NCBI GenBank assembly: GCA_902790465.1
Contig: CADASF010000003.1
Coordinates: 1-60,347 of the forward strand
Origin: an uncultured bacterium
GTDB lineage: Bacteria; Vulcanimicrobiota; CADAWZ01
DNA length: 60,347 nt
Direction: 5' to 3'
Below are positions 2,228-35,624 of the stretch, piece after piece; within the stretch, counting starts at the first letter, position 1, and every line of letters starts with the position of its first letter. The position numbers were made by a program, and so were the translations under genes. The notes under the pieces are model-generated. The model did not search any database. It had not been told where the DNA came from and saw only the letters and a list, made by a program, of their open reading frames with translations.

Positions 2228-3049
2228 ATGAAAAATAAAAAAGGCTTTACACTTCTTGAAACATTGATATCAATTTTAGCATTTGGACTAATAATGACAT
2301 TGATGTTTCAAATATCAGCAAGATTTTTTCAACTATTCAATGCTTCATCATCTAAGCAATCTATGAATAATCAATTTCTAAAAACATATACACATCTGCA
2401 AAAAGAACTTTCAATAACAGACTCAAGATATGTATATTCTTATAAAATATATTTAAAAGATATAAAAGCAAGATGGATGATCTTCCCTATTCCGACAGAT
2501 AAAAATGGACAGATGAAAAGTGAAGGCAATAAATTTAATTGGCAAAGAGTATATTTTTATTATTTACACTGCACTAATCCTGACTGTCCTGAATGTAAAA
2601 CAAAAAATTATTCTGTAAGTAAAGAAAGTCAATTAAAAAATGAAGCATACAAATTTTGTTCAGACAAAAATTTGATCAGATTGATATATGACTATACAGC
2701 TTACAATGATTCAGGTTATTTTTCAGAAGCATTGTCTAATATTTGCGACCATATATCAGAATATACATTGTCAATAGATAGTAATTCTTTTCCAAGTGAA
2801 TTTGACACTGAAATTAAGGGATTTAATAAAGTTCCTGTTATTAAATTTGTTGAAAAAAGAGTTATAGCTAAAGATATTTTTGATATGGATATAATAACAA
2901 ATGCAAATAATGTAAAAATTAAAATGTCAAAAGTAAAAAAAGATGAAATCAAAAAAAAGGTTGAGTATGGTACTACGGATTTTACAAAATCTGAAAATAA
3001 AAAATTTGTTGAAAATATAGAATTTATGGTACATTCAAAAAATAATTAG
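2228..3049 (+). CDS. Type IV pilin-like minor pseudopilin (GspJ/PulJ-like)
   Basis: The N-terminus MKNKKGFTLLETLISILAFG has the prepilin peptidase site (G before FTLLE, Glu at mature position 5) followed by one hydrophobic helix. The rest is a soluble domain of about 240 residues with a CTNPDCPEC cysteine cluster. The call of J-type rests on N-terminal style, size and position before a PilX/GspK-like gene. It should be processed by PilD and sit in a pilus or pseudopilus tip. There is no clear Shine-Dalgarno, common for genes here. The next gene starts 13 bases downstream, so the two are probably co-transcribed. No pilus motor or platform genes are in the window. Confidence 0.8.
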   Translation: MKNKKGFTLLETLISILAFGLIMTLMFQISARFFQLFNASSSKQSMNNQFLKTYTHLQKELSITDSRYVYSYKIYLKDIKARWMIFPIPTDKNGQMKSEGNKFNWQRVYFYYLHCTNPDCPECKTKNYSVSKESQLKNEAYKFCSDKNLIRLIYDYTAYNDSGYFSEALSNICDHISEYTLSIDSNSFPSEFDTEIKGFNKVPVIKFVEKRVIAKDIFDMDIITNANNVKIKMSKVKKDEIKKKVEYGTTDFTKSENKKFVENIEFMVHSKNN

Positions 3050-3062
3050 AAAGTAGAAAATA

Positions 3063-6102: not shown

Positions 6103-8055
6103 ATGGGTAAAATAATAAAAATACCACTAATGTGTACTTTTCTTTTTGTTATTGGAATATTTCTCTCAGCTTGTGGAGGAGGAAAATCAACCCCTCCAAC
6201 ATATCCAATAATACCAATAATTCCAACACCAACTCCTGTAGCTCCTGAAATACAACTTTCAAACACTTTATTTGAAATCAACATAGGAGATACAGACAAC
6301 ATCACTGTTACACTTGATGGCGAAAATGTTACTGAAGAAGCTATATATACACCTGATGATGAAAATATAGCAACTGTTGAAAAAGGTCTTATTACTGCAC
6401 ATAATCAGGGAACAACTATTGTAAATGTACATGTTGAAGGAGCCAAAGAAGACAAAACATTTATTGTTAATGTCATAGATCCAGAACTTCCCACTCTCAA
6501 ACTTTCTCAAAATGTATTTGTTCTAAAAGTTGGACAAACAGACAACATCACAGTTACACTTGAAGATAAAGATGTTACTGAAGATGTAAATTATAGACCA
6601 GCTAATGAAGCAATAGCAACTGTTGAAAAAGGAATTATAACAGCACTTAGTAAAGGTGCAACAGATGTTATCGTATCTCTTGAAAATGCAAATAATGCTA
6701 TATTCACTGTTAATGTCGACCTAACAGACCTTCAACTTTCTAAAAGTGAATTTGAATTAAATATTGATGAAAAAGCAGAAATAGAAGTAACTTGTAATGG
6801 TAAAATAGTTACAAAAGATGTAACTTATACAGTAAATAAGACAACTGAAGATGAAAATATTGTTACTGTTGAAGAAGGAATTATAAAATCACAATACCAA
6901 GGTGGGGAAACAACTGTTACCGTATCTCTTAAAGGTATATCAAATGATGCAACCTTCACTGTTAAAGTAAAAGATGATTCAGTTGGCGACGTCGAATTAA
7001 ATAAAACTGTCTATACTGCACTTTACGATTTGGGACTTGTTACTGAAAGTTATGATAATAGAAAAAAACTTACAGAAATAAATATACCTGGTACCTATAA
7101 AGATAATGACGGCAATAAACATAAAATCACAAGTATTGGAGAATATATCTTTAAGGATTCCAAACTGAAAACTGTTACAATTCCAAATAGTATAATAACA
7201 ATTAACGGTTACGCATTCGAAAGTTGTAAGGATTTAACTGAAATAAATATTCCTGATAGTGTACAAACACTTGGTACAAAGGTTTTTAAAGATAGTGGAG
7301 TAAAAACTGTAAATATCGGAACTGGTTTAATAACTATAGGAAAATACGCTTTTGCATCGTCCGCAGTAACTACAATTAATATCTCAGAATCAAACAAAGT
7401 ATTAACAACAATAGAGGAATATGCATTCGACAGTTGTGATGCTTTAACTGAAATAGTTCTTCCTAATAATGTAGCTGAAAGAACAAAAGAAGAAGGAATG
7501 ACAGGAATTGAAATTAAAAAATACGCATTTAGCGAATGTTCGTCTTTAAAAGAATTAGTTATTCCTGATACTGTTACTGAACTTGGAAAGTATGTTTGTT
7601 CGAACTGCACAAGCTTAGAAACACTTGAATTAGGGAATGGTATTACTGAAATAAAAGAAGAACAATTTAGTAATAAAAATAATCTTGATAAATTAGTAAC
7701 TGTAACTATTGGAACAGGCGTAAAAACTATTGAAAAAAAGGCTTTTGCTGATTCTAAGATTACAAAAATTATAATTCCTGACAATGTTGAAACTATTGGA
7801 ATAGAGGCTTTTACTGCTTGTGTAAACTTGACAACTGTAGAAATTGGAAAAGGCGTAAAAACTATAGGAACAAATGCTTTTTCTGGTTGTGGTTATTATC
7901 AATCAGCAGCTCACTTGAAATTAACAATTCCAGATCAAGTTGAAACAATAGGAGCCAATGCTTTTAGTAAGGTACAATGTATTTATTACACACAGAATTT
8001 AACAGCAGAGGGCTCACCTTGGGGAGCAGAGAGCTATCAAATAATTGAAAACTAA
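6103..8055 (+). CDS. Surface lipoprotein: Big2-like domains plus BspA-type leucine-rich repeats
   Basis: 650 residues. The signal peptide ends in a lipobox (FLSAC, Cys24), then GGG and a Pro-rich linker, so it should be a lipid-anchored envelope protein. Residues about 45-285 hold three Big2-type bacterial Ig-like domains, marked by repeats of GDTDNITVTL, ENIATVEKGLIT and the closing FTVNV. From about 310 to the end come BspA (LRR_5) repeats of about 23 residues, such as SVQTLGTKVFKDSGVKTV and IPDNVETIGIEAF. It ends with a SPWGAES motif shared with the other BspA-type proteins here. BspA repeats in other bacteria mediate adhesion to host proteins or other cells; the ligand here is unknown. 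It is the closest relative in the window of the 9958 gene, including the same terminator sequence. Confidence 0.92.
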   Translation: MGKIIKIPLMCTFLFVIGIFLSACGGGKSTPPTYPIIPIIPTPTPVAPEIQLSNTLFEINIGDTDNITVTLDGENVTEEAIYTPDDENIATVEKGLITAHNQGTTIVNVHVEGAKEDKTFIVNVIDPELPTLKLSQNVFVLKVGQTDNITVTLEDKDVTEDVNYRPANEAIATVEKGIITALSKGATDVIVSLENANNAIFTVNVDLTDLQLSKSEFELNIDEKAEIEVTCNGKIVTKDVTYTVNKTTEDENIVTVEEGIIKSQYQGGETTVTVSLKGISNDATFTVKVKDDSVGDVELNKTVYTALYDLGLVTESYDNRKKLTEINIPGTYKDNDGNKHKITSIGEYIFKDSKLKTVTIPNSIITINGYAFESCKDLTEINIPDSVQTLGTKVFKDSGVKTVNIGTGLITIGKYAFASSAVTTINISESNKVLTTIEEYAFDSCDALTEIVLPNNVAERTKEEGMTGIEIKKYAFSECSSLKELVIPDTVTELGKYVCSNCTSLETLELGNGITEIKEEQFSNKNNLDKLVTVTIGTGVKTIEKKAFADSKITKIIIPDNVETIGIEAFTACVNLTTVEIGKGVKTIGTNAFSGCGYYQSAAHLKLTIPDQVETIGANAFSKVQCIYYTQNLTAEGSPWGAESYQIIEN

Positions 8056-8395: not shown

Positions 8396-8650
8396 TTATG
8401 GAGTATTTAATTGCAATTTTGACAAGTAAAAATCATGCTCTTCCTGTGGAATACTTAACATTTTCATTGCTTGTTCAACAGTATAATTTGCATTTTTCAT
8501 AAGCGACTTTATACTATTTAACAATGATTTTACCGTTCCGAGCTTTTTGCCCTTAGCAATATATTTATCTTTGTTCTGTTTTATATATTTATCTGCTGTT
8601 TTTTCAATAAACTTGATATTTCCATTATTCCCTCCTTTGTTGTTTTAAAA
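8396..8650 (-). pseudogene. Decayed C-terminal copy of the neighbouring Rpn gene
   Basis: This segment repeats the 3' part of the Rpn gene at 8653-9552. The part from about 8506 to 8650 is almost identical to 8755-8912; the rest is more diverged. Differences include a 12-base in-frame deletion (missing AEGE-type codons) and one missing base in a poly-T tract (8599-8604; six versus seven), which shifts the frame. It keeps the CAAAGGAGGG ribosome binding site (8630-8639) and ATG (8625), but translation from there stops after 14 codons. The stop that matches the parent is at 8396-8398. It is probably a partial tandem duplication. Confidence 0.85.
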
Positions 8651-8652
8651 AA

Positions 8653-8889
8653 TTAGAGGGTATTTAACTGTGCCAAATAAAAATCATGTTCTTCCTGTGG
8701 AATTTTTAAAGCCTTCATTGCTTTTTCAGCAGTTACATTCATTGTTTCCATAAGTGACTTTATACTATTTAACAATGATTTTACCGTTCCGAGCTTTTCG
8801 CCCTCGGCTTTGCCCTTAGCAATATATTTATCTTTGTTCTGTTTTATATATTTATCTGCTGTTTTTTTCAATAAACTTGATATTTCCAT
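8653..8889 (-). CDS. Candidate internal-start product of the Rpn gene (C-terminal 78 residues)
   Basis: Inside the Rpn frame, AAAGGAGG (8895-8902) stands exactly 5 bases before an in-frame ATG (8887-8889) that begins MEISSLLKKTADKY. This is a far better initiation site than the gene's own start. The product would be the helical C-terminal part without nuclease residues. Studies of E. coli rpn genes reported an internally initiated short protein that inhibits the full-length nuclease. The same arrangement in the second Rpn gene (34711-35046) supports the idea. This is inference: no expression evidence is available. Confidence 0.4.
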   Translation of the reverse strand: MEISSLLKKTADKYIKQNKDKYIAKGKAEGEKLGTVKSLLNSIKSLMETMNVTAEKAMKALKIPQEEHDFYLAQLNTL

Positions 8890-9552
8890 TATTCCCTCCT
8901 TTGTTGTTTTAAAAAATCTTACTTTCTCTGCCAATTCTTCAAAATAAAATTTTTCAGGATTTTTGCATTGAAAATCATGTACAAGTTTGCCAATATCATC
9001 ATTGCCATTATAAGCACCATTCACATAATATATGTAAGAACGATCATTGAATGGCTCTTTATTATCTTCAAAATATCTTTGTATTTTATAAATTGGCAAG
9101 CCTCTCTTAAAAACATCTGTCTCAGTTATAAAAATAACAAAAGTTGTTGGAAGGTCTTTAAAATCATGATTTTTCTTCAAATTATGAGTATCATATATAT
9201 CAACATGATATCTCGCCCTTTCAGGACTTGCTCCATCTTTTGCTCGCTGAATTTCGATATTATATATAACATTAGTTACCTTGTTTCTTGCTATTATGTC
9301 TAACTGAACAGAATGCCCTTTGAAATTTGTAAATATCTCTTGTATTTTGAGATCGATAATTTCTAAATTTTCATCCTCAAAAATAATGCGTAAAATACAA
9401 GTAACAGCTTTATAATTGTCCTTGAAACAAGCACTAAAAAATTCATCGTCCATCAAATTAAAGTTGTCAATATCTTTTTTCAATTCTTCTTTTAAAACTA
9501 TTTTTTTAGATTTCTTAACATTTTTCTTTTTTGTATTTTTTTTCATACCCAT
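8653..9552 (-). CDS. Rpn-family recombination-promoting nuclease / PD-(D/E)XK putative transposase
   Basis: 299 residues. After a Lys-rich start comes the PDDEXK_2 region: FNLMDDEFFSACF (about 31-43), then HSVQLDIIARNKVTNVIYNIEIQ, in which the Asp of QLDI and the Glu of IEIQ are the expected catalytic acids. RARYHVDIYD follows. The C-terminal third is helical (KGKAEGEKLGTVKSLL, IPQEEHDFYLAQL). E. coli relatives (RpnA-E) are DNA endonucleases that promote recombination and have been linked to phage defence. The start is taken at 9552; ATG 9546 is equally possible, and neither has a clear ribosome binding site. A good promoter lies upstream at 9592-9620. An internal start is annotated separately. 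Confidence 0.9.
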   Translation of the reverse strand: MGMKKNTKKKNVKKSKKIVLKEELKKDIDNFNLMDDEFFSACFKDNYKAVTCILRIIFEDENLEIIDLKIQEIFTNFKGHSVQLDIIARNKVTNVIYNIEIQRAKDGASPERARYHVDIYDTHNLKKNHDFKDLPTTFVIFITETDVFKRGLPIYKIQRYFEDNKEPFNDRSYIYYVNGAYNGNDDIGKLVHDFQCKNPEKFYFEELAEKVRFFKTTKEGIMEISSLLKKTADKYIKQNKDKYIAKGKAEGEKLGTVKSLLNSIKSLMETMNVTAEKAMKALKIPQEEHDFYLAQLNTL

Positions 9553-9957: not shown

Positions 9958-11319
9958 ATGATTAAGAAGCACTTTGCTCTTTTGGCTATCTGTCTTTTCT
10001 TTATAGCTATCATCACTTCAGCTTGTGGAGGTAGTGGGAAAACTACTCCTCCTTCATATCCATTTATACCTGTCCCAACACCTGAAAAATTTCCACTTGA
10101 ACTTTCACAAGCAAAATTTACTTTAAATGTAGGCGATACAGACAATATCACTGTTACATTAAATGGTGAAGACATAACACAAACTGCTACTTATACTGTT
10201 GATCAAGAAGCAGTAGTAAATGTTGAAGGTGGATTAATTACTGGTCTCTCTGCTGGTCTTGCAATTGTTACTGTAAATGCTGAAAATGCAGAAGAGGAAA
10301 AAACATTTACTGTTAATGTCATCGATCCAAGTTTGCCAACGCTCGAAGTCTCACCAACAGAACTAAATTTAAGTATTGAAGAAGAAGCAACTGTAACTGT
10401 TACACTTGAAGGTGAAGATGTTACAGAACAAGTTACTTATACATCTGATGATGAATCAATCGCAACTGCTGAAAAAGGAAAAATTACTGCACAATATAAT
10501 GGAGGAACTGCTAAAATTTCTGTTTCAAAAGAAGGTGCTAATAGTGCAACTATTACTATAAATGTTACAGATGATTCTGAAGAAGTTACACTTGGCGCTG
10601 ATGTTCTCAATAAATTAGGATATAAAAAAGTTCAAAATGAAGAAAGTTATTATGATATAAAAACAATAGAAGATGATACACTTATAACAAATCTTGAAAT
10701 ACCCGCTATTTTTAAAGATAATGAGGGTAACAAATACAAAATTACAGGCATTGGACAATCTGCTTTTTATACTTGTACTTCATTAAAAAATGTAACTATT
10801 CCAGATAGTGTTACTACTATTGGAGAAAAGGCTTTTACATATTGTCCTTCATTAGAAAAGGTAACTATTCCTAATAGTGTTACTATTATTGGAAAATATG
10901 CTTTTAATACTTGTACTTCATTGGAAAATGTAACTATTGGAAATAGTGTTACTACTATTGGACAAGGGGCTTTTTATTATTGTACTTCATTAAAAAATGT
11001 AACTATTCCTAATAGTGTTACTACTATTGGATATGCTGCTTTTACTTGGTGTAATTCATTAGAAAATGTAACTATTGGAAATAGTGTTACTACTATTGGA
11101 CAATCTGCTTTTTATGAGTGTGGTTATTATCAAGGAACTTCTGAATCTTCAAAAACAGCTCACTTGACATTAAAAATTCCAGATCAAGTTGAAACTATAG
11201 GAAACAATGCTTTTTATAAGGTAAAATGTATTTCTTACACAAATAATCTACAAGCACTTCCATATCCTAATGATAATCCTAATTGGGGAGCAGAAGATCA
11301 TAAAATAATTGAAAACTAA
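9958..11319 (+). CDS. Surface lipoprotein: two Big2-like domains plus BspA-type leucine-rich repeats
   Basis: 453 residues with a strong ribosome binding site (AAGGAG). Lipobox ITSAC (Cys23), then a short Pro linker. Two Big2-like domains follow (about 45-125 and 127-205; GDTDNITVTLNGED, ESIATAEKGKIT, FTVNVIDP). From about 235 come very regular 23-residue BspA repeats: IPDSVTTIGEKAF, IPNSVTIIGKYAF, IGNSVTTIGQGAF, and so on. Several are nearly identical at DNA level (69-base period between about 10790 and 11110), so repeat number may vary by recombination. The final part (CGYYQG, IPDQVETIG, NPNWGAE) matches the 6103 gene. Predicted cell-surface adhesin or binding protein. Confidence 0.92.
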   Translation: MIKKHFALLAICLFFIAIITSACGGSGKTTPPSYPFIPVPTPEKFPLELSQAKFTLNVGDTDNITVTLNGEDITQTATYTVDQEAVVNVEGGLITGLSAGLAIVTVNAENAEEEKTFTVNVIDPSLPTLEVSPTELNLSIEEEATVTVTLEGEDVTEQVTYTSDDESIATAEKGKITAQYNGGTAKISVSKEGANSATITINVTDDSEEVTLGADVLNKLGYKKVQNEESYYDIKTIEDDTLITNLEIPAIFKDNEGNKYKITGIGQSAFYTCTSLKNVTIPDSVTTIGEKAFTYCPSLEKVTIPNSVTIIGKYAFNTCTSLENVTIGNSVTTIGQGAFYYCTSLKNVTIPNSVTTIGYAAFTWCNSLENVTIGNSVTTIGQSAFYECGYYQGTSESSKTAHLTLKIPDQVETIGNNAFYKVKCISYTNNLQALPYPNDNPNWGAEDHKIIEN

Positions 11320-34401: not shown

Positions 34402-34728
34402 AATAACTCGTTGTGTTAGTTGATTAATATTTTAAAATCTACCCAAACAGCCTCTGTTTAGAAGAGATGTCATTGCGAGGGAGCTGTGCGACCGTGGCAA
34501 TCTCAACCACTTAATTTAAATTTAGTAATTTATTAAGTAGATTGAGGACAACATTCTAAATAGAGGCGATCGACTCAATTTTTAAGTAAATAATAATTTA
34601 CAGACTTAGATTGCCACGGCTAAAGCCTCGCAATGACAAAATGGTAATATACAGGCATATATTGGATAGTTCACAGCAACTTTTTATTTACTTATTTTTA
34701 TTAAAATCAACTATAACAACGAGTTATT
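34402..34728. repeat. MITE-like dispersed repeat, copy 3, bounded by 24-bp inverted ends
   Basis: The core 34443-34692 is the family seen at 8113 and 12901, here in reverse orientation (TGTCATTGCGAGGG...CCGTGGCAATCTC and AGATTGCCACGG...CCTCGCAATGAC). Outside it, AATAACTCGTTGTGTTAGTTGATT-type sequence (34402-34425) is an inverted copy, two mismatches, of 34705-34728, which is the tail of the broken Rpn gene. Confidence 0.75.
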
Positions 34729-35046
34729 TACTTGTGTTAAATAAAAATTTTGTTCCTCGTGTGGAATGTTCAGTGCTTTAATTGCGTTTTCTGCTGTCAA
34801 ATTTAGATTTTCCATTAATGACTTGATATTATTGATAATAGCATTTGTCATTCCTCTTTTTTCTCCAATCTTTTCGCCTTCAACGAAACCTTCACGCCTT
34901 GAGCCATTAATTGCATTTGCTTCGTCATGTAAACGCTTTTCACGATAGAAGGCCAATCTTCTTAGCTTTTCATCAGCACTCAATTCACGAACTTTAACAA
35001 TTACATCCTTTACTTCAGGAATTTTTGTTGACATTTCTAAAGCCAT
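34711..35046 (-). CDS. Candidate internal-start product of the broken Rpn gene (111 residues)
   Basis: AGGAGGAGG (35052-35060) stands 5 bases before in-frame ATG 35046 (MALEMSTKIPEVK). The frameshift lies upstream, so this C-terminal protein could still be made although the nuclease cannot. Parallel to the internal start in the 8653 Rpn gene. Inference only. Confidence 0.35.
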   Translation of the reverse strand: MALEMSTKIPEVKDVIVKVRELSADEKLRRLAFYREKRLHDEANAINGSRREGFVEGEKIGEKRGMTNAIINNIKSLMENLNLTAENAIKALNIPHEEQNFYLTQVNNSLL

Positions 35047-35624
35047 AAGTTCCTCCTCCTTTTCTGCGTTTATCAATTTTAGCCAATCTTCTACTGGCTT
35101 GCCTTTTTGAGATTTTTTTACTTTTCTAAGTTCAAAAAAATAGATCGAAAATTTATCTGTCAAAAGCTCTTTTCTCTCTTTTTCTAATATTTGAAAATGA
35201 GATTGGTATTCAGGAGATTCAAATAAATTGAAATTAATAATGTTAATGCAAATAGTCTTTCTTAAAGAATCATATTCTTCTGAAGTTTTTAATTCCTCTG
35301 AATAAATTTTAGACCAATAGTAAAGGGTACGATCTTTAAATGCAGGTTCGCTATTTACTTGCATTTCTATATTTATTATTTTTGTTTCAGAATCATTGAC
35401 ATCTTTTAATTCAAGTTTCAAATCAAGTCTTGAAAATTTTTCTCCACAATATTCAGAAGGTAATTCAACATTATCAAAGTGAATTTCTTTAATATCGTCA
35501 GGTTTTATCTCGAGAATATCTGCAAGAAATCTTATTATAATATTTTTATTTCTTATTCGCCAAAAACTCTTTTAAATATTATATCCAATTTTAATTTTAC
35601 AATTTTGGGTAGCTGTTCAGTCAT
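34711..35624 (-). pseudogene. Frameshifted Rpn-family PD-(D/E)XK nuclease
   Basis: Translation from ATG 35624 (MTEQLPKIVKLKLDIIFKRV) meets stops near 35550. One frame away, the protein continues without break as NKNIIIRFLADILEI ... SRLDLKLELKD ... INIEMQVN to the stop at 34711. The joined product of about 304 residues is a complete Rpn/PDDEXK protein (catalytic Asp of RLDLKL, Glu of NIEMQ). So one indel around 35540-35560 broke it, leaving a 236-codon open frame (34711-35421) without the N-terminus. It lies inside DNA inserted between hsdM and hsdS. The C-terminal part resembles that of the Rpn gene at 8653 (NAIKALNIPHEEQNFYL). Confidence 0.85.

Follow-up and report, generated by a model that had tools for sequence, protein, structure and literature searches.

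The closest described systems are the rpn genes of E. coli and one rpn gene of C. difficile, which give rise to a second, C-terminal protein whose internal start has been proven; the Rpn family as a whole is known from 34 bacterial phyla (Zhong et al., 2023, PMC10327210). In E. coli, the short product RpnS blocks both the toxicity and the DNA cutting of the long nuclease RpnL, and four-residue repeats located after the internal start tune the pairing of RpnL and RpnS (Zhong et al., 2023, PMC10327210). RpnS also occurs as a separate downstream gene (PMC10327210). Here, we analysed a stretch of 60,347 nucleotides from an uncultured bacterium of the phylum Vulcanimicrobiota, referred to as the window, for which an earlier note had described an rpn gene with an internal start and had stated, correctly, that short intragenic Rpn products are inhibitors in E. 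coli (PMC10327210). Nested units of this kind have been described before (Zhong et al., 2023, PMC10327210), and the window gene is very probably a further example; no earlier report of nested Rpn starts for this lineage was found in the open-licence literature. The note had also suggested that this could be a nested toxin and antitoxin in an unrelated phylum. A nested Rpn unit is very probably present here, but it would not be the first outside Proteobacteria, as one had already been shown for C. difficile (PMC10327210).

The window gene and its nuclease part

The gene is an open reading frame of 299 codons at positions 8653-9552 of the minus strand, the strand being absent from the earlier note. 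Family models and conserved residues suggest that it encodes RpnL, a full-length Rpn-family PD-(D/E)XK nuclease of 299 aa and putative toxin. The protein matched TIGR01784 (Rpn family recombination-promoting nuclease) over residues 35-288 with E=2e-6 (27.9 bits, cut-off 52.1) and PF12784 (PD-(D/E)XK nuclease family transposase) with E=2.5e-5 (24.6 bits, cut-off 27.4). By sequence we class it as an Rpn nuclease, with family matches that are significant, though below the curated cut-offs. PF12784 was also matched by eight of 10 aligned relatives, which scored higher than the window protein itself (best 2.7e-10). Residues D85, E100 and Q102 are invariant in the window protein and 10 relatives (alignment A1) and at least 90% conserved among 31 sequences from several phyla (alignment A2). 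Based on this conservation, the codons from D85 to E100-x-Q102 (9247-9300, minus strand) probably encode the PD-(D/E)XK active site, and by analogy with the superfamily the three residues would be catalytic.

In the structure model of the full-length protein (pLDDT 86), the nuclease part has a confidently predicted alpha/beta fold. The tail is modelled, likewise with confidence, as helical, and helices are predicted at residues 218-238, 240-271, 275-281 and 286-298. Foldseek searches of the PDB with the full-length and RpnS models returned no confident match, the RpnA_S structure 7TH0 included, a PDB sequence search with profile A1 gave only a chance match, and PADLOC did not match the window protein. 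The genes beside the rpn gene are ordinary, and a recognisable defence island was not found. Two mutually related lipoprotein-like genes (6103-8055 and 9958-11319, plus strand) lie on either side of it, to which Ig-like and BspA-like leucine-rich repeats were assigned by eye.

The genome from which the window is derived contains 47 matches to the window protein, consisting of full genes and fragments, in an assembly of 3.05 Mb. A genome of the same genus (MAG RUG13696) contains 12 and two further genomes of the phylum contain 18 and 5, respectively, whereas the other genomes searched with the window protein gave zero matches. Fragments are common among the copies of the own genome, several of them located at contig ends, and as many of the 47 matches lie at such ends, the Rpn repeats probably break the assembly.

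The internal start in the window gene and its paralogues

Around the internal start, the minus strand reads AAA ACA ACA AAG GAG GGA ATA ATG GAA ATA, coding for KTTKEGIMEI. The Shine-Dalgarno sequence AAAGGAGG (8895-8902, minus strand) precedes the start codon by 5 nt (GAATA), as can be read directly from the sequence and as had been claimed, and it has a duplex energy of -12.1 kcal/mol with the anti-Shine-Dalgarno sequence and is conserved in paralogues. The ATG at 8889-8887 is in frame with the open reading frame 9552-8653 and would give rise to RpnS, a C-terminal product of 78 aa and putative antitoxin (8653-8889, minus strand), a prediction based on the sequence, the register of RpnA_S and a helical model. 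As the note had stated, this product excludes the conserved nuclease residues D85, E100 and Q102. The reported absence of a Shine-Dalgarno sequence at the gene's own start was borne out as well, with the best site at ATG 9552 reaching only -0.9 kcal/mol. Among the starts of 31 other long open reading frames in the window, one scores as well as or better than the internal site, which thus ranks with the strongest gene starts of the genome. Given Lys-Glu, the codons AAG GAG are expected with a probability of 0.029 from the codon usage of the window. A 16S gene, searched for as a check of the anti-Shine-Dalgarno sequence, was not found in the assembly, and a scan for internal promoters was uninformative, yielding 10 sites where 8.2 are expected and no clear internal promoter.

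The window contains a second, distantly related Rpn-family gene with an open frame of 286 aa (34711-35571, minus strand; search match at 34723-35439). It also has an internal start, in which aaggagg is followed at a distance of 8 nt by ATG 35046-35044, 111 residues from the end, and none of 200 synonymous shuffles gave a site as strong as the observed one (-12.1). According to the duplex energies, a weak own start and a strong internal start are found in most Rpn genes of the own genome, and this combination fits with an excess of antitoxin. One might argue instead that the window gene is a decaying remnant with an RpnL start too weak for synthesis, located in a degenerating repeat region that is marked by a frameshifted copy. 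The own start without a Shine-Dalgarno sequence and the frameshift in the copy downstream (see below) are in line with decay, as are the many Rpn copies of the genome that are fragments, several at contig ends; however, the frame of 299 aa is unbroken and retains every conserved residue, and other intact paralogues likewise have weak own starts. We consider it improbable that the gene is such a remnant.

In accordance with the suggestion of the earlier note, homologues were scanned for internal Shine-Dalgarno sequences and starts. The family set consisted of 49 Rpn open reading frames of at least 150 codons from the own and three same-phylum genomes, and 116 open reading frames from the same loci served as controls. 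We counted in-frame starts with a strong Shine-Dalgarno sequence within the last 150 to 30 codons. At an energy threshold of E <= -8, such a start was found in 39 of the 49 Rpn and 6 of the 116 control open reading frames, although the Rpn genes are related, hence not independent, and counts of this type overstate the number of separate events. At E <= -12, the numbers were 17/49 and 0/116. Internal sites are therefore much commoner in Rpn genes than in the controls, and when codons were shuffled synonymously within each of the 49 genes, the count fell to a mean of 14.5 and never exceeded 22 in 200 shuffles.

These shuffles bear on a further explanation, according to which a single protein is made and a conserved Lys/Glu-Glu-Gly...Met peptide of the nuclease yields the Shine-Dalgarno-like sequence as a by-product. 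The KEG/EEG..M peptide is itself widely conserved (columns K215, G220 and M224), and synonymous shuffling, which leaves this peptide in place, alone yields the 14.5 of 49 mentioned above and nearly reaches the observed count in other phyla. In a distant set of 39 Rpn open reading frames from Clostridia and other phyla, 28 carried an internal site compared to 25 of 104 controls; the shuffles of this set gave a mean of 19.7 and a maximum of 28, and as this maximum equals the observed count, the distant set alone cannot separate codon choice from a conserved peptide, which accounts for much of the signal there. In the family set, however, the observed 39 exceeds every shuffle. Moreover, the Shine-Dalgarno cores of 26 distinct sites occur in every possible phase with respect to the start codon (11, 10 and 5 sites), and the peptides encoded beneath it differ, with KEG, EEG, EGG, EEE, EWR, ERS, LRR and others. 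A core that is kept in all three phases over differing peptides, including the unrelated EWR, LRR, EEE and ERS, cannot have its source in a peptide constraint. The by-product explanation is further opposed by AAG GAG being a 3% codon choice here and by the experimental proof that translation starts at the same site in E. coli and C. difficile (PMC10327210), and we regard it as unlikely. The internal Shine-Dalgarno sequence and start are not a matter of chance; they are kept as a nucleotide motif across paralogues with differing peptides. For many genes, this means that the internal start of Rpn is under selection at the level of nucleotides and is not a side effect of the peptide.

Comparison with nested RpnL/RpnS units

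In E. coli rpnA, the codons AAG GAG AGT TTA ATG are found at the mutated positions K240, E241 and M244, whereas the window gene has AAG GAG GGA ATA ATG, so that the register at the internal start is identical. Like E. coli RpnA/RpnA_S, the window gene combines a PD-(D/E)XK nuclease with an internal start that comes after AAGGAG in the codon register KExxM and is followed by four-residue repeats and a helical tail, the latter predicted here. It differs from the E. coli unit in that its tail is longer (78 aa compared to about 50) and belongs to type A of the two tail types described below, in that its Shine-Dalgarno sequence AAAGGAGG is stronger and its own start weaker, and in its amplification to dozens of copies within one genome. 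C. difficile Rpn/RpnS, which was expressed in E. coli, likewise has an internal start outside Proteobacteria, in a different phylum (PMC10327210). At the level of profiles, the type B tail matches residues 253-286 of E. coli RpnA, which lie in the RpnA_S part, with 22 bits, and hhalign relates the profiles of the two tail types to each other (90%); the type A profile, to which the window tail belongs, itself fails to detect RpnA.

Given these similarities, we think it highly probable that the window gene is a gene-within-gene toxin-antitoxin unit consisting of the nuclease RpnL and an inhibitory RpnS produced from ATG 8889. The nested reading put forward in the earlier note thereby gains support from homology, the RpnA_S register and the nucleotide conservation of the start. 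Weighing against it are the family scores below the curated cut-offs, the type A profile that fails to detect RpnA, the Foldseek searches with no confident PDB match, the missing 16S gene, the lack of a clear internal promoter and the ordinary neighbours. The two start sites, their nucleotide-level conservation and the conserved nuclease residues are established directly, and the type B profile points to homology of the tail family with RpnA_S, while translation at ATG 8889, toxicity, binding, inhibition of the long form and phage defence would follow by analogy with the relatives. Weak initiation at ATG 9552 would produce RpnL, a DNA endonuclease of the PD-(D/E)XK type whose tail is helical, and strong initiation at ATG 8889 would produce RpnS, the tail alone. 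Excess RpnS could then bind the RpnL tail and block cutting, similar to E. coli RpnA, and the nuclease would be released by a trigger, probably phage infection.

The short product might also have a different role, either as a structural subunit in a hetero-oligomer with RpnL or as a DNA-binding autoregulator. A parallel for the structural subunit is Cas11d, which forms a hetero-oligomer with Cas10d. The RpnS tail is helical in our model, RpnA_S has been called HTH-like and the E. coli complex of RpnL with RpnS has a 2:2 stoichiometry (PMC10327210), all of which would suit such a role; but in the sole relatives that have been tested the short form is an inhibitor of both nuclease activity and toxicity (PMC10327210), and the free-standing RpnS copies found behind rpn genes fit a role in immunity. 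We consider a different role very unlikely.

Tail types and RpnS copies behind rpn genes

Directly downstream of the window gene, and absent from the earlier note, lies a tandem second RpnS segment with a different tail (NANYTVEQAMKMLSIPQEEHDFYLSKLQLNTP; 8396-8653, minus strand), identified by repeats, alignment and the tail model (81-86 bits). This copy begins 15 nt ahead of its Shine-Dalgarno sequence AAAGGAGG (8631-8638, minus strand), which is identical to the internal one and part of a 55-nt repeat with 100% identity. Altogether, the gene and the copy share two perfectly identical stretches of 55 nt and 59 nt, Shine-Dalgarno sequence and ATG included, and up to the end of the repeat behind the first helix the two differ in just one base and a 12-nt gap. 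The gap corresponds to a 12-nt unit of the gene, encoding a four-residue repeat (KAEG/AEGE; 8800-8811, minus strand), which in the pairwise alignment is absent from the downstream copy. In the last third of the tail, gene and copy diverge sharply, and the combination of near-100% identity at first and sharp divergence later weakens the idea of a plain tandem duplication. The frame of the copy is broken after nine codons by a run of six A residues where the gene has seven, and translation from ATG 8625 would yield a peptide of 14 residues, MEISSLLKKQQINI, before a stop (8581-8625, minus strand; sequence and alignment). This homopolymer difference could be an assembly error; unless it is, the copy is rejected as a functional second antitoxin in this strain. 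The segment at 8653-8396 may be a displaced RpnS remnant, now frameshifted.

RpnS cassettes were found behind seven of the 40 Rpn genes with enough downstream sequence (the window gene L001, and L075, L081, L084, L094, L105 and L113); a match at L016 was left out, as it is the gene's own tail after a stop. In this respect the locus resembles ypaA/rpnE_S and rpnC_S (DUF4351 in some species), where a second RpnS is located directly behind the rpn gene, although the downstream copy in the window is frameshifted (PMC10327210). In E. coli, the downstream RpnS groups with the tail of the gene that it follows (PMC10327210), whereas here gene and copy agree in the first helix and often differ in the tail, which is of the other type at two loci. 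The tails of the Rpn proteins fall into two types, A and B, and the window gene carries type A. At L113 and L075, the first helix is common to the gene and the downstream copy, and from the repeats onwards the two have tails of different type. L113 (own genome, contig C82, 1-892) consists of a type A gene followed immediately by an intact free-standing RpnS of type B, and at L075 (same-genus genome, 380-970, minus strand) the gene has lost its internal start and the free-standing downstream RpnS possesses a Shine-Dalgarno sequence and ATG. On the tree of the nuclease part, a quick tree in which some branches are long, there are at least 10 changes of tail type, of which eight or more fall on well-supported branches. 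Sister pairs with unlike tails include the window gene (A) and L106 (B), L075 (A) and L076 (B), L083 (B) and L113 (A), and L084 (A) and L088 (B). The 12-nt unit, in turn, occurs in one of the two copies in the window and is missing from the other, and several pairs of paralogues differ in the same manner.

We tentatively propose, and would give it a little under an even chance, that in this rumen-type lineage Rpn diversifies by exchange of the antitoxin tail, with the displaced RpnS persisting for a time and then decaying. Recombination at the 12-nt repeats just past the internal start would give a resident rpn gene a new tail, and the displaced RpnS, which has a ribosome binding site and ATG of its own, would stay downstream as a free-standing antitoxin that may still neutralise old partners before it decays. 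The proposed exchange is drawn from comparative anatomy. In polymorphic toxins such as CdiA-CT/CdiI, the C-terminal module is replaced and the older orphan module stays downstream. The likeness to these orphan modules is one of working only, with a replaced module left downstream, and Rpn would exchange an antitoxin/oligomerisation tail and not the toxic domain. Tail exchange is perhaps the most interesting part of this locus family. Natural gene pairs with near-identical nucleases and different tails, and tail pairs with the same first helix, make the part of RpnS that determines specificity, and the rise of new specificities without cell death, directly testable.

A solo RpnS-like gene was also seen in the own genome (L103, contig C13, open reading frame 2681-3050, minus strand), whose Lys-rich N-terminus is joined to the internal start by deletion of the intervening nuclease part.
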